In this document: positions 960-10,348 of the stretch, piece after piece | How positions within the stretch are numbered: the stretch's first letter is position 1 | How the letters are laid out: each line of letters starts with the position of its first letter | Virus record (IMG/VR): IMGVR_UViG_3300017742_000130 | Location: 1-22,956 of that record | Length of the DNA: 22,956 bases | Direction: 5' to 3' (one strand) | From: a virus | Position numbers and translations under genes: made by a program | The notes under the pieces: generated by a model | What the model was told of the DNA's origin: nothing | What the model saw: only the letters and a program-made list of their open reading frames with translations | Database searches by the model: none

Positions 960-988
960 TGTACAATTATTATAAATAGTTGTATAAT
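960..988 (+). promoter_or_regulatory. sigma70-like promoter upstream of the CTS-like cluster
   Basis: TGTACA (960-965), a 17-bp spacer and a perfect TATAAT (983-988) sit 32 bp before the ATG at 1021. The -35 hexamer is the same as in the promoter at 20393. The spacer contains a TATAAATA box, listed separately. Confidence 0.6.
971..978 (+). promoter_or_regulatory. possible T4-type late promoter box TATAAATA
   Basis: An exact match to the T4 late promoter element (recognised by gp55 in T4) lies in the 87-bp gap before the CTS-like cluster. Its product would be expected late, matching head proteins. The octamer also occurs by chance in AT-rich DNA, including inside genes of this window, so the position is the main support. 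Confidence 0.45.
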
Positions 989-1020: not shown

Positions 1021-2481
1021 ATGCTTGGTTTTAAACAATTTATTCCAGAGGATCTTCAGAATCTTCAATATAACGGAAACGATAATGCATTTGTATTGTC
1101 AGTTCTGTCAGATATCGACGATCAAATTGGATCTATTAATTCTGAAATTGAAATTGATGTAAGGCCAAGCAAGCAAAGCGGTGCTAAGTTAGGTATTAGT
1201 CAACTAATGCTTGACAAAGACCGTGTAAAGTTTTCTGCACTTGCTCGAGATATTATCGATAAGACTCCTGATCTAGAACTTAGAATGGATAAAGTTCCAG
1301 GTGCTCGTAAAGAAAAAGACTACGCATTTAAGCATAAGGATATGAAAAAATATGTGTATGTTAACGTCCGACCAAAAGGTGGCCGTGGTTCATTGGGTGA
1401 TGATCCTCATGAGTTAATGACTGCGGCACTTTGTCTTAAAGCATTCCCTAAAAAACATAAAATCGAAAACTCTGATCAGATGGATCAATTGATCGAACTT
1501 GTTAAAGGCCAATTAAAAAATGTAAAAGGCTATAAGCAAGGTCAGGTTGATTCACTTATTGGTGACTATTCTAATCTATGTAAAGCAGTATCTGCAGCAA
1601 ATGCAATTATTGATGCAGGATATGGTGGCGCCGATATGGTCTATCTTACTGGTCAAGCATGGGACAATGATGTAAAACAATTCCAAATGACAAAGCATGG
1701 AATGAAAGATTTTAACTCATCTGATTTTATAATTAGAAAAGGTAAAAACTTTGTCGGTATTTCGCTAAAGAAAAAGAAACGATCTACTGAAGCAGATCCA
1801 ACTCTTATCAACAAAGCATTTACTGGTTTATTAGCTGATAGAAAATTCGATAAGCTTAAGCAACAGATTGATGATGATGCAGGTGCTTTTTATGTGCATG
1901 TTATTAAAGTTGCTCAAAGACTTAAACTTCTTTCGCCTGACTTAATGGCAGATATTAAGAAAAGCAGACCAAGTAGAAAAAACTGGAAGCAATACATTCA
2001 GCGCATTCCAAATGACTTGGTTAACCGTGTTCTAAAAGGCAAGCGAACTTTGTTTAAGCGAATGGCTGATACAATCAATAAGAACAGTGATATGATTGCA
2101 GATCAGTTAGTTCAACTAATATTTAAGTCTGATCTAAAAGAACTAAAGAAAGTAAACTTTGATTTTGCTTTAGTTACAGGCGTTGGCGAATACGGTCCAA
2201 GAAAAGGTGTTGTTGTTGAAAAAGGTGAATATAAAGATATTGATACCACAACAACTGTTATCGATGAATTGTTTTCTAAGGGTAAGCCTAAAATGATTCT
2301 TACTCCTGGAGCATCACAAGCATTTGATCCTGGCGCAAAGGCTGCAAATATTAAATTCACCCTAATGATTGGTGATCAATCAATCGCTAATATCATACTA
2401 CGATATAAGGGTGACTTTAGAAGTGCACCAAACTTTAACGCAGAAATGACGCCAGAATTTAAAAAGTTATTTAAATCTTAG
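1021..2481 (+). CDS. CTS-tagged 486-aa protein, possible PD-(D/E)XK-like nuclease
   Basis: I do not recognise a named family. The N-terminus MLGFKQFIPE matches the layout of the T4 capsid targeting sequence MKTYQEFIAE, with an I-x-E site at residues 8-10, so the protein may be packaged in the head and trimmed after E10. The middle holds SSDFII (D235), then a strand and ISLKKKK (K250). That D...SxK spacing resembles a PD-(D/E)XK nuclease core with Ser in place of the usual Glu/Gln. E131 in a helix could be the extra acidic residue. The C-terminal third is mixed alpha/beta without clear motifs. The start has an SD-like AGGAAA (1010-1015) seven bases upstream region. It is the first gene after the promoter region and is followed after 8 bp by another tagged gene. 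The nuclease assignment is weak. Confidence 0.8.
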   Translation: MLGFKQFIPEDLQNLQYNGNDNAFVLSVLSDIDDQIGSINSEIEIDVRPSKQSGAKLGISQLMLDKDRVKFSALARDIIDKTPDLELRMDKVPGARKEKDYAFKHKDMKKYVYVNVRPKGGRGSLGDDPHELMTAALCLKAFPKKHKIENSDQMDQLIELVKGQLKNVKGYKQGQVDSLIGDYSNLCKAVSAANAIIDAGYGGADMVYLTGQAWDNDVKQFQMTKHGMKDFNSSDFIIRKGKNFVGISLKKKKRSTEADPTLINKAFTGLLADRKFDKLKQQIDDDAGAFYVHVIKVAQRLKLLSPDLMADIKKSRPSRKNWKQYIQRIPNDLVNRVLKGKRTLFKRMADTINKNSDMIADQLVQLIFKSDLKELKKVNFDFALVTGVGEYGPRKGVVVEKGEYKDIDTTTTVIDELFSKGKPKMILTPGASQAFDPGAKAANIKFTLMIGDQSIANIILRYKGDFRSAPNFNAEMTPEFKKLFKS

Positions 2482-2489
2482 GAAAAATT

Positions 2490-3734
2490 ATGTTAAAATT
2501 TAAGAATCACGTACCTCTACAAGAGGCCGCTAAGAACACTCACATGACTCATATCGAAGATCTTATCCTTGATGGTGGAGTCAAAGGTGCTCGTCAGGCA
2601 ATATTAGCCCTTAGATCTTTACGTGATATGTTATCTGGAAACGCAAAAGCGCCTGTCGATATTACTGTTAAGTGGGATGGTGCTCCTGCAGTATTTGCTG
2701 GTGAAGATCCAGAAACTGGTGAATTCTTTGTTGCTAAGAAGGGTATCTTTGCTAAAAATCCTAAGATATACAAGTCTCATGAAGATATTGATGCAGATAC
2801 TTCAGGTGATTTGTCTAAGAAATTAAAACTTGCATTTGATAATCTAAAAGATTTAGGAATTAAAGGAGTCATTCAAGGCGACTTTATGTTTGATCGTTCT
2901 GACCTAAAATCAGAAAAGATTGATGGTCAACGTATGACTGTATTCCATCCAAATACAATTGCATATGCAATCCCTAAAGGAACACCTTTAGAAAAAGAAA
3001 TTAGTTCAGCTAAAGTTGGTATTGTATGGCATACGTCATATAGTGGTGCAACATTTGAAACAATGAAGGCTGAGTTTGGTCGTGAAATTGTTCCTAAGCT
3101 AAAGAAGTCTAAGAACGTATGGATGCAAGATGCAACACTACCTGACTTATCTGGTACTGCAACATTAACTGCAAAGGAAACAGAAGAAGTAAATAAAAAT
3201 CTGTCTGCTGCAGGTAAAATATTCCAAAAGATTGCATCAACTACATTGAAAGAGATTGAGCAAAACAAAGAATTAAATCTTATTATCAACGTTTATAATA
3301 ATAGGAAAGTTCGTGAAGGTCAGCGTGTTAGTGATACTAAGAAGCATGCAACTGGTCTTATTATGTTTGTTCAAGATAGATATGCAAAAGAAATAACAAA
3401 GCGTAAATCTGAAAAAGGTAAACAAGCTCAAATTCAGAAGCGTGACGAATTACTAAAGTTTTTTGATAAAAAGAACCTAAAAAACTTACAATTAATTTTC
3501 GAATTACAAAATTATGTTATAAATAGTAAATTAATTATTATAAATAAATTAAACAAACTATCAAATATTGGTACATTTGTTAAGACTAAATCCGGATTTA
3601 AAGTAACCAACCCTGAAGGTTTTGTTGCTATAGATCGAATGGAAGGTGGTGCTGTTAAGTTAGTAGACCGTATGGAATTTTCTACTAATAACTTTAGCAA
3701 AGATATTATAAAAGGTTGGGACAATCCTAACTAA
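2490..3734 (+). CDS. CTS-tagged KxDG nucleotidyltransferase-like protein (RNA/DNA ligase fold)
   Basis: This 414-aa protein belongs to a type I recall in marine T4-like phages as an uncharacterised domain family (possibly DUF6267; not verified). The motifs suggest the covalent nucleotidyltransferase fold of ligases and capping enzymes. VKWDGAP at 60-66 fits motif I with K61 as the adenylated Lys; VAKKGIF (81-87) fits the next motif; QGDFMF (129-134) fits motif III; VFHPNTIAYAI (151-161) fits IIIa; PEGFVAID (375-382) fits motif IV; and GAVKLVDR (387-394) fits motif V. A charged helical insert of about 150 residues separates motifs IIIa and IV, unlike T4 Rnl1, Rnl2 or gp30. The N-terminus MLKFKNHVPLQEAA is CTS-like with an LQE site at 10-12. 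AGGA at 2480-2483 serves as SD. Substrate (RNA, DNA or other) is unknown. Confidence 0.85.
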   Translation: MLKFKNHVPLQEAAKNTHMTHIEDLILDGGVKGARQAILALRSLRDMLSGNAKAPVDITVKWDGAPAVFAGEDPETGEFFVAKKGIFAKNPKIYKSHEDIDADTSGDLSKKLKLAFDNLKDLGIKGVIQGDFMFDRSDLKSEKIDGQRMTVFHPNTIAYAIPKGTPLEKEISSAKVGIVWHTSYSGATFETMKAEFGREIVPKLKKSKNVWMQDATLPDLSGTATLTAKETEEVNKNLSAAGKIFQKIASTTLKEIEQNKELNLIINVYNNRKVREGQRVSDTKKHATGLIMFVQDRYAKEITKRKSEKGKQAQIQKRDELLKFFDKKNLKNLQLIFELQNYVINSKLIIINKLNKLSNIGTFVKTKSGFKVTNPEGFVAIDRMEGGAVKLVDRMEFSTNNFSKDIIKGWDNPN

Positions 3735-3755
3735 TATGGGTAACCGAGGATAAGC

Positions 3756-4115
3756 ATGTTAACATTTCAACAGTTTGAAGCACTCACGCCTGCGCAAAGA
3801 GCAAAGATGAAAATTGCTATGAAGCGTAATAAGGCTAAGATCGCACTTGGCCGTAAAAAGGCAGCCAAGAAACTCGCATCCCCAGAACAACTTAAAAAGC
3901 GTGCAAATAAAAAAGCTCGTGAGATTCTATTGAAAAAAATTCTCAAGGATCGTGGCAAAGAAGATTTATCGTTTAAGCAGCGCCAAGAGATTGAGAAGAA
4001 GCTAGACAAAAAGAAGGCAGCAATTAAGAAGATTGCCAAAAAGATATTGCCTCAAGTAAAAGCTAAAGATAGAGCAAAGAAACAAGTTAAGGGAGATGCG
4101 GGTAAAAATGATTAA
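3756..4115 (+). CDS. small Lys/Ala-rich basic protein, CTS-like start
   Basis: This 119-aa protein is extremely rich in lysine and arginine and predicted helical, with the pattern SPEQLKKRANKKAREILLKK followed by LSFKQRQEIEKKLDKKKAA. Similar small basic proteins are common in T4-like marine phages, where their function is not known. The N-terminus MLTFQQFEAL resembles the capsid tag but lacks a clean I/L-x-E site, so cleavage is doubtful. A basic, tagged protein would fit a DNA-condensing internal head protein, comparable in charge to the T4 internal proteins; this is inference. GAGGA at 3746-3750 is a good SD, five bases before the ATG. The end overlaps the next gene by eight bases. Confidence 0.8.
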   Translation: MLTFQQFEALTPAQRAKMKIAMKRNKAKIALGRKKAAKKLASPEQLKKRANKKAREILLKKILKDRGKEDLSFKQRQEIEKKLDKKKAAIKKIAKKILPQVKAKDRAKKQVKGDAGKND

Positions 4116-5391
4116 GAGTTTTAGCGATTATGTAACAGAGTCACGTGGTGACGTTACAATAGTATTCGGAAGATTTAATCCACCAACGAGTGGCCACGAG
4201 AAGCTATTTGACACTTTAAAGAAGGTGTCTCGCGGTGGTACATATAGAATATATGCGTCTAAATCTCAAGATTCCAAGAAGAATCCACTTCAATTCAAAG
4301 AAAAAGTCAAATTCTTACGTAAAATGTTCCCTAAGCATGCACGTAATATTATGGCTGATTCTGATACAAGAACAGTTATTGATGTTGCGGTTAAGCTATA
4401 CGACCAAGGGTTTACTAAACTAACCATGGTTGCTGGTTCAGACCGAATCAAAGAATTTGAATTACTACTAAACAAATATAACGGCGTTGAAGCACGTCAC
4501 GGTTTCTATCAGTTTGAAGGAGCTATCCGTGTTATTTCTGCAGGCGAAAGAGATCCAGACAGTGATGACGTATCAGGCATGTCTGCATCTAAACTAAGAG
4601 CTGCTGCAGAAGCTAATGATCTAAAACTATTCTCAAAAGGTATGCCTAAAGGCTATAAAGGTTCTATTGAATTATTTAATGCTGTACGTAAAGGTATGGG
4701 TTTAAAAGAATCTAAGTCATTTAGAAAGCATGTTGAATTACCTAAAGTATCTGAAACCAGAGAAAAGTTTATTGAAGGTAAACTATTTGCTGAAGGTGAT
4801 CAGGTTGAAATTATCGAAAGTGGTGAGATTGCTACTATAATTAATTGTGGCGCTAACTATCTAACGGTATCAGTATCTGGTGAAAAGAAAAGAGTTTGGC
4901 TTGATGCAGTAAAAGAAGCCGCTGAAGATCCAGATATAAAAGACAGAAAAGGTAAACAACCTGCTCCTTATTATAAAGGACTAAAATCAAAATCAACTAA
5001 AACAAAGCGAGCAGCGCATTTTGACAAGTATGCTAAGATGGACGATGATGATCCAAGAGCATATAAAAAAGCACCAGGCGATGCTACAGCCAAAACTAAG
5101 CCATCTAAGCATACAAAGAAATTCCAACAAATGTTCGGTGAATTATATTCCGAAGACTTTGGTGTACAAGAAGGTAATGTTAAAAAAGCACTATTGAAAA
5201 AAGCAGATAAGTCTGGTATGCCATATGCAATTCTTAAGAAAGTATTTGATAGAGGTGTTGCAGCATGGAGAACTGGTCATAGACCAGGCACTACTCCTAC
5301 ACAATGGGGTCTTGCAAGAGTTAATTCATTCGCAACTAAATCTCCTGGTACATGGGGTAAAGCTGATAAAGATTTAGCAGCTAAGGTTTAA
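4108..5391 (+). CDS. CTS-tagged TxGH nucleotidyltransferase fused to phage modules
   Basis: The first domain (about 13-195) is an adenylyl/cytidylyltransferase fold: IVFGRFNPPTSGHEKL (18-33) carries the T-x-G-H signature (T27-H30), as in phosphopantetheine adenylyltransferase, and SGMSASKLR (156-164) is the second signature ending in Arg. Family members transfer AMP or CMP to substrates such as NMN or phosphopantetheine; the substrate here is unknown. The middle (about 282-344) has PAPYYKGLKSKSTKTKRAAH and KTKPSKHTKKF, and the end (about 372-427) has AAWRTGHRPGTTPTQWGLAR, two modules I recall in other phage proteins without known function. I chose the ATG at 4108 over 4096 because it yields MIKSFSDYVTES, a CTS-like start with VTE at 9-11. 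It overlaps the previous stop by eight bases. The 427-aa length is far above a stand-alone nucleotidyltransferase. Confidence 0.88.
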   Translation: MIKSFSDYVTESRGDVTIVFGRFNPPTSGHEKLFDTLKKVSRGGTYRIYASKSQDSKKNPLQFKEKVKFLRKMFPKHARNIMADSDTRTVIDVAVKLYDQGFTKLTMVAGSDRIKEFELLLNKYNGVEARHGFYQFEGAIRVISAGERDPDSDDVSGMSASKLRAAAEANDLKLFSKGMPKGYKGSIELFNAVRKGMGLKESKSFRKHVELPKVSETREKFIEGKLFAEGDQVEIIESGEIATIINCGANYLTVSVSGEKKRVWLDAVKEAAEDPDIKDRKGKQPAPYYKGLKSKSTKTKRAAHFDKYAKMDDDDPRAYKKAPGDATAKTKPSKHTKKFQQMFGELYSEDFGVQEGNVKKALLKKADKSGMPYAILKKVFDRGVAAWRTGHRPGTTPTQWGLARVNSFATKSPGTWGKADKDLAAKV

Positions 5392-5393
5392 AC

Positions 5394-5693
5394 ATGAAAA
5401 GTTTTAAAGATCACATTAACGAAGCTAAGAAAATTAAGTGGAATAAAGTAAAAGCCGATTATAGTTACGGACCAAATAAGTACAAGTACGTATCGTCTGA
5501 TGGTAAGCTTGAGATTCAATACACTGGTTATGACACTACGCAGAAAACCAGAGATGGAAGGCAAAAGGCATTACCAACAGTAATTGATCTAAGTGATCGT
5601 ACACCGAGGAAACCAAATAAGTCATACAAGACCATAGCTGCAGCTAAAAAAGCAGCGCAAAAATGGGTCGATACGTTTTGGAACGAGAAATGA
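5394..5693 (+). CDS. CTS-tagged small basic protein, unknown function
   Basis: A 99-aa protein that starts MKSFKDHINEAKK, one of the closest matches to the T4 tag MKTYQEFIAEA, with the I-x-E site at residues 8-10 and Ala after it. The rest is lysine-rich with aromatic residues (YSYGPNKYKYVSS, KWVDTFW) and looks like a compact alpha/beta domain. No catalytic motif was seen. It follows the nucleotidyltransferase gene after two bases and its stop overlaps the start of the kinase gene (ATGA), so translation is probably coupled. A packaged internal protein is the best guess. Confidence 0.78.
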   Translation: MKSFKDHINEAKKIKWNKVKADYSYGPNKYKYVSSDGKLEIQYTGYDTTQKTRDGRQKALPTVIDLSDRTPRKPNKSYKTIAAAKKAAQKWVDTFWNEK

Positions 5694-6355
5694 ATTTTAA
5701 AGAACATAGTCAAATAATGGAAGGGGTAAATGACCCCGCAATATTTAAAGCAGTGTTCCTAGCAGGTGGACCAGGTTCTGGTAAATCATTTGTAGTAGGT
5801 AAAACTTCTTTAAAGGCATTAGGCTTTAGATTGATTAATTCTGATGATGCATTTGAAAAGGGATTAAAGAAAGCAGGATTGACTACTGATCCTGAAGATA
5901 TTGCATCTGCACAAGGACAGGCAGTAAGAGCTTCAGCTAAAGCTTTAACTGGCAAAATTATGGTTAGAGCTTTAGAAGGTAGAAACGGTATTGTTATTGA
6001 TGGTACTGGAAAAGATTTTAATAAGATTAAAAAGCAAGTTAATATGGTTCGTGAATTAGGTTATGCGGTTCATATGATTTTTGTTAATACTGATTTAGAA
6101 ACTGCGCAAGCTAGAAATAAAAAGCGAGACCGAAGCTTGCCAGAGAAAATGGTTGAAAAAATGTGGAAGGATGTTCAAAAGAACATAGGTAAGTTCCAAG
6201 CATTATTTAGAAACAGAATGACTATTGTAGACAATTCAGATGGATCTAATATCGAAAGAGCTACGATGGATGCGTATAAAACAATTGCAAAATGGTCAGC
6301 TAAACCACCTGAGAATTCAAAGGCGATTAAGTGGATAAAGGGTCAACAAAAATGA
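5690..6355 (+). CDS. CTS-tagged P-loop kinase, zeta-toxin-like
   Basis: A 221-aa P-loop kinase. Walker A is GGPGSGKS (26-33), preceded by the hydrophobic strand AVFLA. INSDDAFEK (49-57) supplies the acidic pair expected of zeta-type or polynucleotide-kinase-like enzymes; IVIDGTGKDF (101-110) is the second strand; GYAVHMIFVN (124-133) the third; and RNKKRDRSLPE (142-152) carries lid arginines as in zeta toxins. Zeta kinases phosphorylate UDP-amino sugars and related enzymes phosphorylate nucleic acids or metabolites; the substrate here is unknown. The start at 5690 is preferred over 5663 because it forms an ATGA overlap with the previous gene and yields MNFKEHSQIMEG, a CTS-like start with IME at 9-11. 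No antitoxin partner is seen, so a toxin-antitoxin role is unlikely. Confidence 0.86.
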   Translation: MNFKEHSQIMEGVNDPAIFKAVFLAGGPGSGKSFVVGKTSLKALGFRLINSDDAFEKGLKKAGLTTDPEDIASAQGQAVRASAKALTGKIMVRALEGRNGIVIDGTGKDFNKIKKQVNMVRELGYAVHMIFVNTDLETAQARNKKRDRSLPEKMVEKMWKDVQKNIGKFQALFRNRMTIVDNSDGSNIERATMDAYKTIAKWSAKPPENSKAIKWIKGQQK

Positions 6356-6558
6356 AAAATTTTAAAACAATGAGAGAAGCATTAAAGAATCCTTACAAAG
6401 GAAAACCAGAGCGTGATCTAAAGCGTAAGCTAGATTCTTTTAAAACGCAACTTGATGACTTGATTAAAAAAAGCCGTGGCCGTCAGCGAAAAGAAATTGA
6501 AGCTGAAATCCGAGATATGGAAACAAAGGTGCAACAAGTTAAGGCTGCATTAAAATGA
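6352..6558 (+). CDS. CTS-like small helical basic protein
   Basis: A 68-aa protein, predicted as a coiled coil (KRKLDSFKTQLDDLIKK, then RKEIEAEIRDMETKVQQV). I chose the ATG at 6352, which overlaps the kinase stop as ATGA and gives MKNFKTMREALKN, in line with its neighbours; an upstream GTG at 6331 would add seven residues inside the kinase gene. The tag is weaker, with MRE at 7-9. The stop overlaps the next start as ATGA. Function unknown. Confidence 0.75.
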   Translation: MKNFKTMREALKNPYKGKPERDLKRKLDSFKTQLDDLIKKSRGRQRKEIEAEIRDMETKVQQVKAALK

Positions 6559-6581
6559 AAACGTTTAAAGAACACTTAGAA
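6555..6581 (+). repeat. tag-coding direct repeat, copy 1
   Basis: 27 bases encoding MKTFKEHLE. They match the copy at 6799-6825 at 25 of 27 positions, and both differences are synonymous third-base changes (Thr and His codons). Confidence 0.85.
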
Positions 6582-6791
6582 GAGAAGAAAAGTGAATCAT
6601 GGGAAGATGGTTACGAACGCCGTGTCGTGAAAACCACTAAACCTGAACACAAAGAAAAAGGCTACAACTGGCGTATTAAGGGCAAAGAACGTCCTGAGAT
6701 TTCAATTAAGCTTTACAAGAATAAGCCCGACTTTGCAGAATTTAAAAAGCAAATGCGAAGAGTTGCTGGCCACGAATTTGGTACAAGATAG
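6555..6791 (+). CDS. CTS-tagged small basic protein, unknown function
   Basis: A 78-aa protein beginning MKTFKEHLEEKKSE, a near-copy of the T4 tag layout with LEE at 8-10. Its first nine codons nearly repeat those of the gene at 6799. The body is charged and basic (RVVKTTKPEHKEKGYNWRIK), with no catalytic motif. Starts by an ATGA overlap with the previous gene. It is likely an internal head protein if the tag works as in T4. Confidence 0.75.
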   Translation: MKTFKEHLEEKKSESWEDGYERRVVKTTKPEHKEKGYNWRIKGKERPEISIKLYKNKPDFAEFKKQMRRVAGHEFGTR

Positions 6792-6798
6792 GAATAAC

Positions 6799-6825
6799 AT
6801 GAAAACATTTAAAGAACATTTAGAA
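6799..6825 (+). repeat. tag-coding direct repeat, copy 2
   Basis: Second copy of the MKTFKEHLE coding segment at 6555-6581. Sequence similarity drops right after the tag, so the two genes share the tag and not the body. Confidence 0.85.
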
Positions 6826-7173
6826 GGTTTTGGTTTATATGAAGGCACATATGTTCCATTAGAAAAGCCATTGATTGAAATCGATGAGCAAGCTGAGCCC
6901 GAATTAAATAAACCTAAACGTTCTAGTGGTAAGAAAAAATATGTTGTTTATGTTAAGAATCCAAAAACGGGCAATATTAAGAAAATAGAATTCGGTGATG
7001 AAAAGGGTGGATTAACATCCAAGATCAACGATAGAGAAGCAGCCGCTAGTTTTGCAGCTAGGCATAGTTGCGATACTAAGACGGACAAATTAACGGCAGG
7101 ATATTGGGCTTGCAGGTTACCCAAATATGCCAGCGAATTGGGGCTTAAAGGTGGTGGAGATTACTTCTGGTAG
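6799..7173 (+). CDS. CTS-tagged conserved phage protein with RHSC...YWACR motif
   Basis: A 124-aa protein that starts MKTFKEHLEGFGLYEG. The first nine residues equal those of its upstream neighbour, but the site after H7 is LEG; the nearest I/L-x-E is LYE at 13-15. The C-terminal two thirds form a domain I know from many T4-like marine phages: KKYVVYVKNPKTGNIKKIEFG, then REAAASFAARHSC (about 76-88) and AGYWACRLPKYA. The two cysteines and the His could bind metal or form a disulfide; function is unknown. The start at 6799 is supported by an SD-like AGGAA at 6790-6794 and by the tag; an upstream ATG at 6733 would lie inside the previous gene. Confidence 0.82.
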   Translation: MKTFKEHLEGFGLYEGTYVPLEKPLIEIDEQAEPELNKPKRSSGKKKYVVYVKNPKTGNIKKIEFGDEKGGLTSKINDREAAASFAARHSCDTKTDKLTAGYWACRLPKYASELGLKGGGDYFW

Positions 7174-7447
7174 ACCATATACGGATGATGAAGATAATAT
7201 ACGGACGTTTGACCCATATGCAGACGATGCTGAATACGTTTGGCACCGCGATATGGAAGATAGAGAAATTGAAGTCTTAGACGGCGAAGGTTGGTGTTTT
7301 CAAGTGGATAAATGCCTACCATGGTTATTAAAAAAAGGTATGATATTTAATGTAAAAAAGTTTGAATATCATCGTTTAATCAAAGGCATTACGCCATTAA
7401 AATGTAGGGTAATAAAACATGTCATCGGCACAACAACAAAGAGCTGA
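7127..7447 (+). CDS. conserved small phage protein (EDRE..GEGWCFQ.D..LPWLL)
   Basis: A conserved type in marine T4-like phages, function unknown. It contains GRPYTDDEDNIRTFDPYADD, then EDREIEVLDGEGWCFQVDKC and FEYHRLIKGITPLK near the end. The acidic first half and the pattern of aromatic residues are typical of the family as I recall it. Start is uncertain: the ATG at 7127 overlaps the previous gene by 47 bases, while GTG codons at 7151 and 7154 would begin closer to the conserved part. No CTS-like start is present. Its end overlaps the next gene by 29 bases. Confidence 0.72.
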   Translation: MPANWGLKVVEITSGRPYTDDEDNIRTFDPYADDAEYVWHRDMEDREIEVLDGEGWCFQVDKCLPWLLKKGMIFNVKKFEYHRLIKGITPLKCRVIKHVIGTTTKS

Positions 7448-7718
7448 ACAATCTGCGCGCTTAGATCGAATAGAGCAAAAGATAGATCAACTGTCTGAAG
7501 CTATTATTGCCTTAGCACGCGCTGAAGAAAAGATAACCACCTTAACTGAATTTAATAAACAGCAAGGGGAACAACTATTAACTCTTATAAATAGAGTTGA
7601 TGGACTTGAAACTGTAGTTCGAGATAATGCTCAAACTGTTAATATTATAAACAAAATATTCTGGGTAATGATAGCTGCAGCAGCAACTGGTATTACTGGA
7701 ATGATATTTTATGCATAG
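7419..7718 (+). CDS. coiled-coil protein with C-terminal membrane segment (XhlA-like layout)
   Basis: A 99-aa protein with a long amphipathic coiled coil (RLDRIEQKIDQLSEAIIALA and onwards, about residues 14-70) and a single hydrophobic segment at the end (IFWVMIAAAATGITGMIFYA, 79-98). This layout resembles XhlA-type holin-associated proteins and also simple membrane tethers. A T4-type holin is larger and has an N-terminal membrane segment, so this is not gp t. The start at 7419 lies within the end of the preceding gene. Spanin-like and lipase genes are about 2 kb downstream, so a lysis role is possible but unproven. Confidence 0.75.
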   Translation: MSSAQQQRAEQSARLDRIEQKIDQLSEAIIALARAEEKITTLTEFNKQQGEQLLTLINRVDGLETVVRDNAQTVNIINKIFWVMIAAAATGITGMIFYA

Positions 7719-7727
7719 GAGATAAAC

Positions 7728-8369
7728 ATGCGCACATCAGACCAAGAAACTTTGAGCATTGCAGCAGTTGTTAGTGATGTAGTCGAAGGCAAAAAAGCTA
7801 CTGAGGAAGCCAAATATCCTCATAAAATGTATGATCCAAAAACTGGCGAAGAAGTATCAGTTAAGGATGAAGAAGAACATGAAAAATACAACAAGCTAGG
7901 TTGGGTTCATGACAAGCCAAAAATGGAATCACCTGAAGAGCCACGTGCTCAAGGCGAAAAAGATTTTAAAGATAAGCATACTGTAAAGAAATCGGGTGCT
8001 AAAGCTGATGGTACTATTGTTAAAGAAGAATCTATTGAAGAAGCTGCTGGCAAGTATACCAAGCGAGGCGATAAAGAAAAATACCAATGGGGCGACATCA
8101 ATAAAGCTATGACAGCTGCCGGTATGAATGCTCGTGATATTCTTAGTGTGCTGGGTAAGCTATCAGGTAAATCTCTGAAAGAAGAATCTATCGAAGAAGC
8201 TGCTGATGTTGATGAAGCTTCAGAAAAGCAAAAGAAGTATCAAGCATTCTTCCAGAAAGCATTGAAAAAGTATGGTGTTAAATCACCTGCTGAACTCGAT
8301 AAAGAGAAAAGAAAAGACTTCTTCGATTATGTCGATAAAAACTACGAAGCAGAGAACGAAACTGACTAA
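7728..8369 (+). CDS. charged head scaffold/core-like protein with duplicated protease-like sites
   Basis: A 213-aa, highly charged protein. It has YPHKMYDPKTGEEVSVKDEE (30-49) followed by HEKYNKLGWVH, a module seen in phage head-associated proteins as I recall, and ends in RKDFFDYVDKNYEAENETD, a tail common in T4-like marine phage proteins. The segment KEESIEEAA occurs twice (99-107 and 151-159) and the second is followed by DVDEAS. SIEE/AA and VDE/AS fit the T4 gp21 prohead protease rule (I/L/V-x-E, then a small residue), so the protein may be cut into peptides like T4 scaffold proteins. SD is AGGAG at 7718-7722. Function by analogy only. Confidence 0.78.
   Translation: MRTSDQETLSIAAVVSDVVEGKKATEEAKYPHKMYDPKTGEEVSVKDEEEHEKYNKLGWVHDKPKMESPEEPRAQGEKDFKDKHTVKKSGAKADGTIVKEESIEEAAGKYTKRGDKEKYQWGDINKAMTAAGMNARDILSVLGKLSGKSLKEESIEEAADVDEASEKQKKYQAFFQKALKKYGVKSPAELDKEKRKDFFDYVDKNYEAENETD
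8022..8048 (+). repeat. KEESIEEAA coding repeat, copy 1
   Basis: 27 bases encoding KEESIEEAA. They match the copy at 8178-8204 at 26 of 27 positions; the single change is synonymous. Confidence 0.85.
8178..8204 (+). repeat. KEESIEEAA coding repeat, copy 2
   Basis: Second copy of the putative protease-site segment, 52 codons after the first. Confidence 0.85.
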
Positions 8370-8395
8370 GCTATTGTAAGGCGTATATATAATTT

Positions 8396-8767
8396 ATGAT
8401 GAAAATATTTGATGAGTTGAATACTCGTAACTTTAAACTCTACGCGGCGCAGCACTATAATAATCCTGAGTGTACCGACGTTGTAGAGTTTAAAGAAGAT
8501 CTAAGCCGGTTTAAGTATATTAAGCGTTTACTAAGTCGTTATGAAGCCCATGGCGATTTACAGGAGCGCTTAATATTAAACCATTTAATTGTCATATATA
8601 ATGTTTTCGGCATTGAAGCGGCAAATCGAATGTTGTGGTATAAGGTAGAAAAAGACCACTGGACATACATAAAGCCGTTTTTAGTGTTTTTAAATTATCT
8701 ACCGATAGACGAAAAAGTCGAGATCCCGTTGGATCCGATAGTAATAGAGAGGTTAAGAAATCTATAA
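8396..8767 (+). CDS. conserved T4-like marine phage protein, unknown function
   Basis: A 123-aa protein (or 122 aa from the ATG at 8399) of a kind I recall as conserved in marine T4-like phages: MKIFDELNTRNFKLYAAQHY, RLLSRYEAHGDLQERLILNH and NVFGIEAANRMLWYKV. Mostly helical, no catalytic motif or membrane segment. No good SD precedes the start. Its stop overlaps the next ATG by one base (TAATG), so the two are probably translated together. Confidence 0.8.
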   Translation: MMKIFDELNTRNFKLYAAQHYNNPECTDVVEFKEDLSRFKYIKRLLSRYEAHGDLQERLILNHLIVIYNVFGIEAANRMLWYKVEKDHWTYIKPFLVFLNYLPIDEKVEIPLDPIVIERLRNL

Positions 8768-9348
8768 TGGGTACCGTATCAAAAACAGCAGATTTATTTT
8801 ATGCGTTTAGATTCCTTAGACTTCTTACTACGCCGTGGGAAAATACAACGGCATACGAATTAGGAATTATAGATGAGACTGGTAAGGTCCTTAAAAAGGC
8901 CAAAGAATTAACTACAGTTGAAGAAAAGTCTGCGTATAATGTATTCCACAGATTAGTTTTTAATCTAAAAAGATTATTAGGCAAATTGCCATTTGGCAAA
9001 ACCAAATTAGCTTCATATGCTGCTGCACTCTTTTTAATTAAAGAAAATACAGGTCTGAGCGAAGAAGAGATTAAAAAGGTCATGTCTGAAATACTAGATG
9101 ACATGGAAGACCTTGAAGAATCAACCTGGTTCCAAGAAGATAGTAAGCTTAAGCCAGGTAAGTATAAGTTAACCGAAGAAGTTGCTTCGCCAATTACAGG
9201 TGAAGTTATTGCGTATCCTAAGGATACAATAGAAGTAACAGAATTCAAAGAACCAGTTGCATGTTTATTTAATCAAAATATTTACGAAGTAACGCATTCT
9301 AAGACTGGTTTATTGATATATATTACTACTGGAGAAATAAAACGATGA
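8767..9348 (+). CDS. conserved T4-like marine phage protein (MGxVSKTADL type)
   Basis: A 193-aa protein with the N-terminal pattern MGTVSKTADLFYAFRFLRLL, which I recall from many marine T4-like phages without known function. The first 115 residues are helical and the last 65 look like a small beta domain (KPGKYKLTEEVASPITGEVI). LEE/S at 116-119, near the junction, would fit a gp21-type cleavage site, which would separate the two parts; this is speculative. Starts by TAATG coupling; its stop overlaps the next gene's start by four bases (ATGA). Confidence 0.78.
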   Translation: MGTVSKTADLFYAFRFLRLLTTPWENTTAYELGIIDETGKVLKKAKELTTVEEKSAYNVFHRLVFNLKRLLGKLPFGKTKLASYAAALFLIKENTGLSEEEIKKVMSEILDDMEDLEESTWFQEDSKLKPGKYKLTEEVASPITGEVIAYPKDTIEVTEFKEPVACLFNQNIYEVTHSKTGLLIYITTGEIKR

Positions 9349-9539
9349 AAGGTTTTAAGGATATTTGGGAAATTGCTGCAAATATGACAGGCCCAAACGT
9401 TTCTATGCCAGCTGACGTCACACATGCTAAAAAGAAGAAAAAGAAAGGTATGTACGATGGCCGGACAAAAGAAGGTCGTAAGTTTGTAGAAAGAATATTG
9501 GCACGTAGAAGAGCTGCGGAGGCCAAAAAGGAAAAGTAA
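9345..9539 (+). CDS. CTS-like small very basic protein
   Basis: A 64-aa protein starting MKGFKDIWEIAAN, with the IWE site at 7-9 followed two residues later by Ala-Ala. The rest has a KKKKKKG run and an arginine/lysine-rich tail (RKFVERILARRRAAEAKK). It may be an internal nucleic-acid-binding head protein, last in the series of tagged proteins. SD-like GGAG lies upstream; start overlaps the previous stop. Confidence 0.72.
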   Translation: MKGFKDIWEIAANMTGPNVSMPADVTHAKKKKKKGMYDGRTKEGRKFVERILARRRAAEAKKEK

Positions 9540-9543
9540 TTAT

Positions 9544-9912
9544 ATGGCTAAATTTTTAATTGGAATAATTTTTATTATGGCTGCTGGTGGCTGGTTCCTA
9601 TATAATAAAAATTTAGAATTAGTAGAATTAAACAATGCGTATGAGGTTAGGGATGTAGAACAGCGTGCAGCTATTCTTGCTATCCAGAACCAAATGGAAA
9701 CCACACAGCAGGCTATCCAAAACCTGCAAAGAAAAAACCAAGAGTACGAAACGCAGATGAATGAATACCTAGACGTATTCAGACGTCACAATGTGAGTAA
9801 GTTGGCATCTGCCAAGCCTGGTATGATAGAGAAAAGATTTAATGATGCAACCAAAGGAGTATTTGATGATATTGAAGAAATTAGCATTAGTATTTCTAGC
9901 CTTAACGATTAG
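9544..9912 (+). CDS. i-spanin-like membrane/coiled-coil protein
   Basis: A 122-aa protein with one N-terminal membrane segment (FLIGIIFIMAAGGWFLY, 4-20) and a periplasmic coiled coil (about 25-78, VEQRAAILAIQNQMETTQQA and following). This is the layout of Rz-type inner-membrane spanins, which fuse inner and outer membranes in the last step of lysis of Gram-negative hosts. The next gene begins out of frame inside this one and encodes a lipoprotein, as in Rz/Rz1 pairs. No sequence signature defines the family, so the call rests on topology and gene overlap. Confidence 0.75.
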   Translation: MAKFLIGIIFIMAAGGWFLYNKNLELVELNNAYEVRDVEQRAAILAIQNQMETTQQAIQNLQRKNQEYETQMNEYLDVFRRHNVSKLASAKPGMIEKRFNDATKGVFDDIEEISISISSLND

Positions 9913-10348
9913 TGCCTGTTCCTTAATTGGGCCTAAAGAGGTAGAAATAATCACAAAACCTGTACAAATTGATATTGTACAGCCAGTCTTACCGAGACCT
10001 ATCGATTTAAAAGACCCTAAATTCTATGTAGTGTCTGATGCAGTTATCATTGAAAATTGCCTAAAAGACCCTGCAACTGACAAGCCTAATTGTAAGTTAG
10101 GCAGAGAAGATATATATCCAGAGGGGTATACATATTTAGATCGTTTTATAGATGATATTAAAAAGAAGCATGGTGGTGATATTGTCTTTGTTGCAATGAC
10201 AGTTGATGACTATGAAATGATGGCGTATAATACGCAAGAGATCAAAAGATATATTAGTCAATTAGGTGAAGTTATTGTATATTATCGTAATGTCACAATT
10301 GGCGATAACGAGGCAGCTGCCGTAGAAATAAAGGTTGAGGAACAATGA
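9866..10348 (+). CDS. outer-membrane lipoprotein, o-spanin-like
   Basis: A 160-aa lipoprotein. The signal peptide MILKKLALVFLALTISAC ends in the lipobox I-S-A-C with C18 the lipidated residue. I chose the ATG at 9866 rather than 9842 because AAAGGAG (9853-9859) lies six bases before it and the signal peptide then begins at once. It overlaps the i-spanin-like gene by 47 bases in another frame, like Rz1. It is longer than classical Rz1; after a proline-rich stretch (QPVLPRPIDLKDP) it has an extra globular region (YTYLDRFIDDIKKKHG onwards). Two Cys at about 63 and 73 (ENCLKDPATDKPNCK) may form a disulfide. It may act in lysis with the upstream protein. Confidence 0.8.
   Translation: MILKKLALVFLALTISACSLIGPKEVEIITKPVQIDIVQPVLPRPIDLKDPKFYVVSDAVIIENCLKDPATDKPNCKLGREDIYPEGYTYLDRFIDDIKKKHGGDIVFVAMTVDDYEMMAYNTQEIKRYISQLGEVIVYYRNVTIGDNEAAAVEIKVEEQ

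Follow-up and report, generated by a model that had tools for sequence, protein, structure and literature searches.

We analysed a virus fragment of 22,956 nucleotides (IMG/VR record IMGVR_UViG_3300017742_000130, hereafter the window; 36% G+C, 38 called genes), in which a cluster of ten genes encodes proteins beginning with a common short pattern: a Phe, then Phe, His or Tyr three residues on, then hydrophobic-x-Glu. Genes are named here by their first position, and the ten open reading frames (ORFs) at 1021, 2490, 3756, 4108, 5394, 5690, 6352, 6555, 6799 and 9345 have the coordinates and starts reported in a first-pass annotation (Table 1). Nine of them follow one another with no other gene in between. 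We place the window phage among the T4-like phages of the Kyanoviridae kind because the nearest annotated relatives of the cluster are Phage C48C1, Methylophilales phage Melnitz, Stenotrophomonas phage DLP6, Pelagibacter phage HTVC008M and many cyanomyoviruses. The ten N-termini are very probably capsid-targeting sequences (CTS) of the T4 internal-protein (IP) type, by which the phage would pack and deliver the tagged proteins as cargo.

Table 1 Tagged genes of the window and the promoter in front of them.
Feature	Position	Strand	Details
T4-type late promoter TATAAATA	971..978	+	49 nt 5' of first tagged gene; sigma70-like TATAAT follows
Tagged protein, 486 aa	1021..2481	+	tag MLGFKQFIPE at 1021-1050; phrog_3060, function-less annotation
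Tagged DUF6267 protein, 414 aa	2490..3734	+	tag MLKFKNHVPLQE at 2490-2525; PF19782; proposed RNA/DNA-ligase-superfamily nucleotidyltransferase
Tagged basic protein, 119 aa	3756..4115	+	start MLTFQQF at 3756-3776; clean cleavage site absent
Tagged cytidylyltransferase/NMNAT-like protein fused to DUF5824, 427 aa	4108..5391	+	tag MIKSFSDYVTE at 4108-4140; phrog_3041, PF19141
Tagged small protein, 99 aa	5394..5693	+	tag MKSFKDHINE at 5394-5423
Tagged P-loop kinase (zeta toxin/polynucleotide-kinase-like), 221 aa	5690..6355	+	tag MNFKEHSQIME at 5690-5722; PF13671, PF06414
Tagged basic protein, 68 aa	6352..6558	+	MKNFKTMRE at 6352-6378; sole site M-R-E
Tagged small protein, 78 aa	6555..6791	+	tag MKTFKEHLEE at 6555-6584
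Tagged small protein, 124 aa	6799..7173	+	MKTFKEHLEGFGLYE at 6799-6843
Tagged basic protein, 64 aa	9345..9539	+	MKGFKDIWE at 9345-9371; site I-W-E; orthologues MKxFKD[MVI]WED

The shared start had been described at first pass as having a Phe at a fixed place and, in most of the proteins, hydrophobic-x-Glu within residues 7-12. This description of the Phe holds for eight of the ten proteins, where it is residue 4, and fails for 4108 and 5690, where it is residue 5 and residue 3, respectively. Likewise, hydrophobic-x-Glu ends by residue 12 in eight of the ten; in 6799 it is LYE at residues 13-15, and counted up to residue 16 it is present in nine, the exception being 3756, which has none. The targeting part of the pattern, M-x(1-3)-[FY]-x-x-[FYH] with His counted as aromatic at +3, matched 8 of the 38 window genes, all of them among the ten; shuffled N-termini gave an expectation of 0.93, and none out of 2000 shuffles reached 8. 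The two tagged proteins that it missed were 6352 (Met at +3) and 9345 (Ile at +3). A strict form that includes the cleavage residues matched four window genes (1021, 4108, 5394 and 6555) against 0.06 expected, an excess of about 65-fold over same-residue shuffles. The tag was absent from the remaining window genes. All-versus-all BLASTP with E up to 0.1 detected no similarity between the bodies of the ten proteins, which belong to different families, as had been proposed. The first 28 bases of 6555 and 6799 are nearly identical DNA, pointing to recent copying of the tag.

In T4 IPIII (MKTYQEFIAE) residues 4 and 7 serve head targeting and residues 8 and 10 processing (PMC9026906). T4 ipII has the same start as ipIII, and ipI starts MKTFKEF, six residues of which are identical in 6555 and 6799 (MKTFKEH). 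Judged by its letters, the tag carries those features of a T4 CTS that can be tested on sequence.

Conservation of the tags was followed in about 230 related loci retrieved from IMG/VR. Across orthologues the letters of the tag diverge and the pattern is kept; it is retained only in orthologues of the ten tagged families and essentially never in the other window families. Orthologues of the kinase, for example, start MESFKTFIAE/GVNDP, MNFKEHSQIME/GVNDP or MLSFKTYLEE/GVNDP, where the slash marks the junction of tag and body, and in each of the 62 distinct contexts the conserved kinase body is immediately preceded by a Glu, nearly always the last residue of [LIVMF]-x-E. For DUF6267 (2490) a Glu was found at most 6 residues from the body in all 73 contexts, with Leu or Ile at P3 in 70 of them. 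The cleavage site of gp21 is (L/I)-x-E, which the DUF6267 junction fits, and the gp23 propeptides of relatives contain sites of the same type (FLSE, MISE, FIGE and FMTE).

The DUF6267 proteins of S-SZBM1 and S-CAM9 have no tag and start, with MAKNTHLEH, exactly at the body start of the tagged form, which indicates that the tag is a removable module; the S-CRM01 and S-SM1 copies are likewise untagged. As expected of a removable tag, the first 10-18 residues are disordered in the predicted models of DUF6267 and 1021. Melnitz encodes a cytidylyltransferase of 650 aa whose C-terminal domain (530-650) is homologous to the body of 6799 (52.8% identity, E 2.7e-35); what is a fused domain there is in the window a separate gene with its own tag, and the tag is kept in 6799 orthologues. 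Scanning the related loci for tags revealed three more tagged families with no assigned function. Strict tags are concentrated in this region of three large relative contigs, of Melnitz and of the part of C48C1 that was scanned, and outside it they occur at about chance level.

The sequence ATAAATA lies 26-77 nt upstream of the orthologue of the first tagged gene in 18 out of 18 related loci checked, where 0.05 occurrences are expected per 120 nt. Only this position 5' of the first tagged gene counts, the number of ATAAATA over the whole window (6 found, 14 expected) being uninformative. A sigma70-like TATAAT follows the late core in many related loci, and in the window the late core is embedded in a sigma70-like promoter (930-1000; TATAAATA, then TATAAT). 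The cluster is possibly under dual early and late control and thus expressed early as well. No head gene lies within the 22,956-base fragment. Relatives reaching 100-120 kb (three large contigs) encode gp20, the gp21 protease, the gp22 scaffold and gp23, Melnitz also having a gp21-type protease and a gp22-type scaffold, and by analogy with them the window phage itself probably has a protease and a scaffold of these types.

The 4108 orthologue, a cytidylyltransferase, has been detected by mass spectrometry (MS) in virions of S-SM1 (PMC3037559), S-SZBM1 (PMC9146016), S-SCSM1 (PMC9602691) and S-CREM2 (PMC10665884). All four detected orthologues carry the tag (MKKFSAFLNE in S-SM1, MRFRQFIIE in S-SZBM1, MKSFLQFLKE in S-SCSM1 and MKNFSSFLTE in S-CREM2), compared with a frequency of 17 among 930 called genes. 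The kinase of S-CRM01, which has been described as a virion protein, begins MISFDQFLSE. In S-CREM2 the strict motif is present in 6 of the 219 proteins, and 4 of these are virion-detected (Fisher p=0.004 among non-structural proteins, in a test that was not blind since the motif was written after some S-CREM2 N-termini were known). The four are an S-adenosylmethionine (SAM) hydrolase (Pfam SAM lyase), a small protein, an APH/ChoK-like kinase and the cytidylyltransferase. Closer to a blind test is a profile trained only on relatives of the window, which placed 6 virion proteins in its S-CREM2 top 8 (p=0.0026). The S-CREM2 authors raise contamination and mention no tag (PMC10665884), and our literature search found no paper tying these virion detections to a CTS, a query combining 'capsid targeting' and 'cyanophage' giving only a review.

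Two S-CREM2 genes were also observed in passing. ORF6 (locus L008, 3837-5081), the SAM lyase (PF23780) detected in virions by published MS, has a perfect tag, MKDFDSFLEE, and is a candidate injected anti-restriction enzyme. ORF12 (L008, 7704-10313) has the N-terminus RWxxWxxG followed by an internal, tag-like LRFASFMAEAA (residues 17-26), and a resembling arrangement is found in S-CRM01 and S-N03; ORF12 is annotated as Cas9, an annotation for which we found no Pfam match and on which we did not rely.

Several of the tagged proteins have recognisable enzyme features. The 4108 protein contains the nucleotidyltransferase motif GRFNPPTSGH and matches PHROG cytidyltransferases, and Pfam places 5690 among the P-loop kinases of the zeta/AAA_33 type. 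For DUF6267 we propose RNA/DNA-ligase-type nucleotidyltransferase chemistry as the likely activity because motifs and predicted fold agree. Motif I KxDG (K[WF]DG), motif IV EGFV and the motif V Lys (K390) are each present in 38 out of 38 sequences, and the top 12 VIA-align rows of the model (pLDDT 83; long helical insertion at about 228-357) are all RNA ligases, with modest Z of 6.2-7.0. In the 1021 model (mean pLDDT 75), residues 18-121 look like the pol-beta nucleotidyltransferase fold: the 50 VIA rows listed are all from that superfamily (Z 8.4-9.8, matches of about 95 residues). Inspection by eye of the invariant residues in the alignments did not reveal the active-site signature of the superfamily, hG[GS]...DxD (GS/DxD). 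Plain Foldseek gave no significant match for the DUF6267 or the 1021 model, and no meaningful match to a solved structure came from sequence searches that started from the DUF6267 profile, the 1021 profile, the cytidylyltransferase or the kinase. PADLOC run on the ten tagged proteins returned one weak and uninformative match (3756). A PD-(D/E)XK motif common to 1021 and a tagged 333-aa protein of locus L068 was considered and dropped after profile comparison gave it no support.

The first-pass proposal of one T4-CTS-like tag shared by unrelated proteins, several of them enzymes, is well supported by the tagged 4108 orthologues detected in virions and by the conservation of both the junction Glu and the late promoter. 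Late in infection the proteins would bind the prohead core through the tag (Phe at about residue 4 and Phe, His or Tyr three residues on). A gp21-type protease would cut the tag after the Glu of hydrophobic-x-Glu in most of the ten proteins, and the freed proteins would remain in the head with the DNA and enter the next host together with it. The cargo would consist of the ligase-like DUF6267 protein, the NMNAT-like cytidylyltransferase, the zeta/polynucleotide-kinase-like kinase, the 486-aa protein and small basic proteins. The cleavage after Glu, the location in the head, the injection and the use of the tag by the window phage itself are inferred.

A number of observations weigh against packaging and delivery of these proteins, besides the unblinded motif test mentioned above. 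The predicted canonical cleavage sites of 3756, 6352 and 9345 are weak or absent. The virion detections all come from other phages, none from the window phage, and, as noted by the S-CREM2 authors themselves (PMC10665884), MS of CsCl-purified phage cannot distinguish protein inside the head from protein that co-purifies. S-CREM2 ORFs 37 and 175 have the motif and were not detected in virions. Conversely, S-SCSM1 proteins 89, 90, 92, 93, 95 and 97 (locus L266, 1858-8807, in the syntenic cluster) are virion-annotated and have no canonical tag, which suggests a second route into the particle.

It is improbable that the tag serves head assembly only, by binding the scaffold or some other assembly partner, with the proteins being parts of the core that may leave or stay but are not brought into the host to act there. 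The ten include four large proteins, three of which match enzyme families, and the tagged cargo of S-CREM2 includes a SAM lyase and a kinase, which are sensible inside a host; the T4 IPs themselves, even though IPIII influences head morphogenesis (PMC9026906) and several tagged window proteins are small and basic like them, are injected into the host and block restriction enzymes (PMC12373910). We give very little credence to the idea that the shared start has no targeting role and simply reflects translation initiation or the base composition of an A+T-rich phage (MK-F-K codons after the start). Codons for Lys, Phe, Asn and Ile are common in the window, MKxF alone is common, and 3.4 window genes would be expected by chance to have the loose core pattern of the first-pass annotation, but the strict pattern greatly exceeds same-residue shuffles, is missing from the remaining genes of the window and from the orthologues of these, has as its conserved part Phe, His or Tyr at +3 and hydrophobic-x-Glu at the body junction, and occurs also in S-CREM2, whose genome has 47.9% G+C. 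Just as slight is the chance that the ten genes are duplicates of one ancestor of which only the N-terminus is still recognisable, for although 6555 and 6799 indicate that tags can be copied, the bodies have no detectable similarity and differ in fold and family, and untagged homologues exist.

Beyond the cluster, an overlapping pair in the window (9544-10348), consisting of a short protein with an N-terminal membrane helix and a lipoprotein-like ORF, resembles an inner/outer spanin pair, and a class 3 lipase (PF01764; 10345-11100) lies between this pair and a ribonucleotide reductase.

The novelty lies in a cargo that is large in scale and enzymatic in nature, in its distribution across marine T4-like phages and in the explanation offered for the orphan enzymes of published virion proteomes. 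Cyanophage virion proteomics has repeatedly found unplaced enzymes (cytidylyltransferase, kinases, SAM hydrolase/lyase) that were feared to be contaminants, and the tag with its conserved cleavage junction offers a mechanism for their presence. The tag also predicts which further hypothetical proteins are packaged, makes the question testable on existing spectra and gives a sequence handle for discovering new counter-defence proteins. It suggests, too, that phages abundant in the ocean bring finished enzymes with which to act on their hosts. On a broader view, to which we would give even chances, a modular capsid tag lets marine T4-like phages (Kyanoviridae and relatives) bring a large and exchangeable kit of enzymes into the host at infection, a pre-formed repair and counter-defence set acting before phage gene expression. 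This kit would hold a nucleic-acid ligase-like enzyme, an NMNAT-like enzyme and a nucleic-acid or small-molecule kinase, with a SAM lyase in cyanophages.

The tags share with the gp21-cleaved CTS of T4 IPI, IPII, IPIII and Alt a short N-terminal form with an aromatic at 4 and 7, a hydrophobic at 8 and Glu at 10, the use of one tag on unrelated bodies, the late-promoter context and the company of a gp21-type protease and gp22 scaffold, here in relatives. In contrast to the T4 IPs, the window phage, a marine Kyanoviridae-like phage, groups about ten tagged genes in a single cluster, and several of their products are likely enzymes of 220-490 aa; His often replaces Phe at +3, the length of the tag varies, and cleavage and injection are predicted. 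DUF6267 resembles the RNA ligases (T4 Rnl1/Rnl2, Naegleria RNA ligase) in its invariant motifs I, IV and V Lys and in the modest fold match of its model, and differs from them in its long helical insertion and in having no detectable sequence match to solved ligases. Giant phages such as phiKZ and SPN3US also eject many head proteins whose N-terminal propeptides are cut by a gp21-like protease (PMC5694885), but their propeptides are mostly longer than 100 residues and have no short common tag. The kinases, cytidylyltransferase/NMNAT and further virion-associated non-structural proteins of the cyanomyoviruses S-SM1, S-SZBM1, S-SCSM1, S-CREM2 and S-CRM01 have in common with the window the 4108 orthologue, the syntenic cluster and the tag on detected proteins; whereas those reports list the proteins as virion-associated without a route of entry, we propose here the tag and its cleavage junction.

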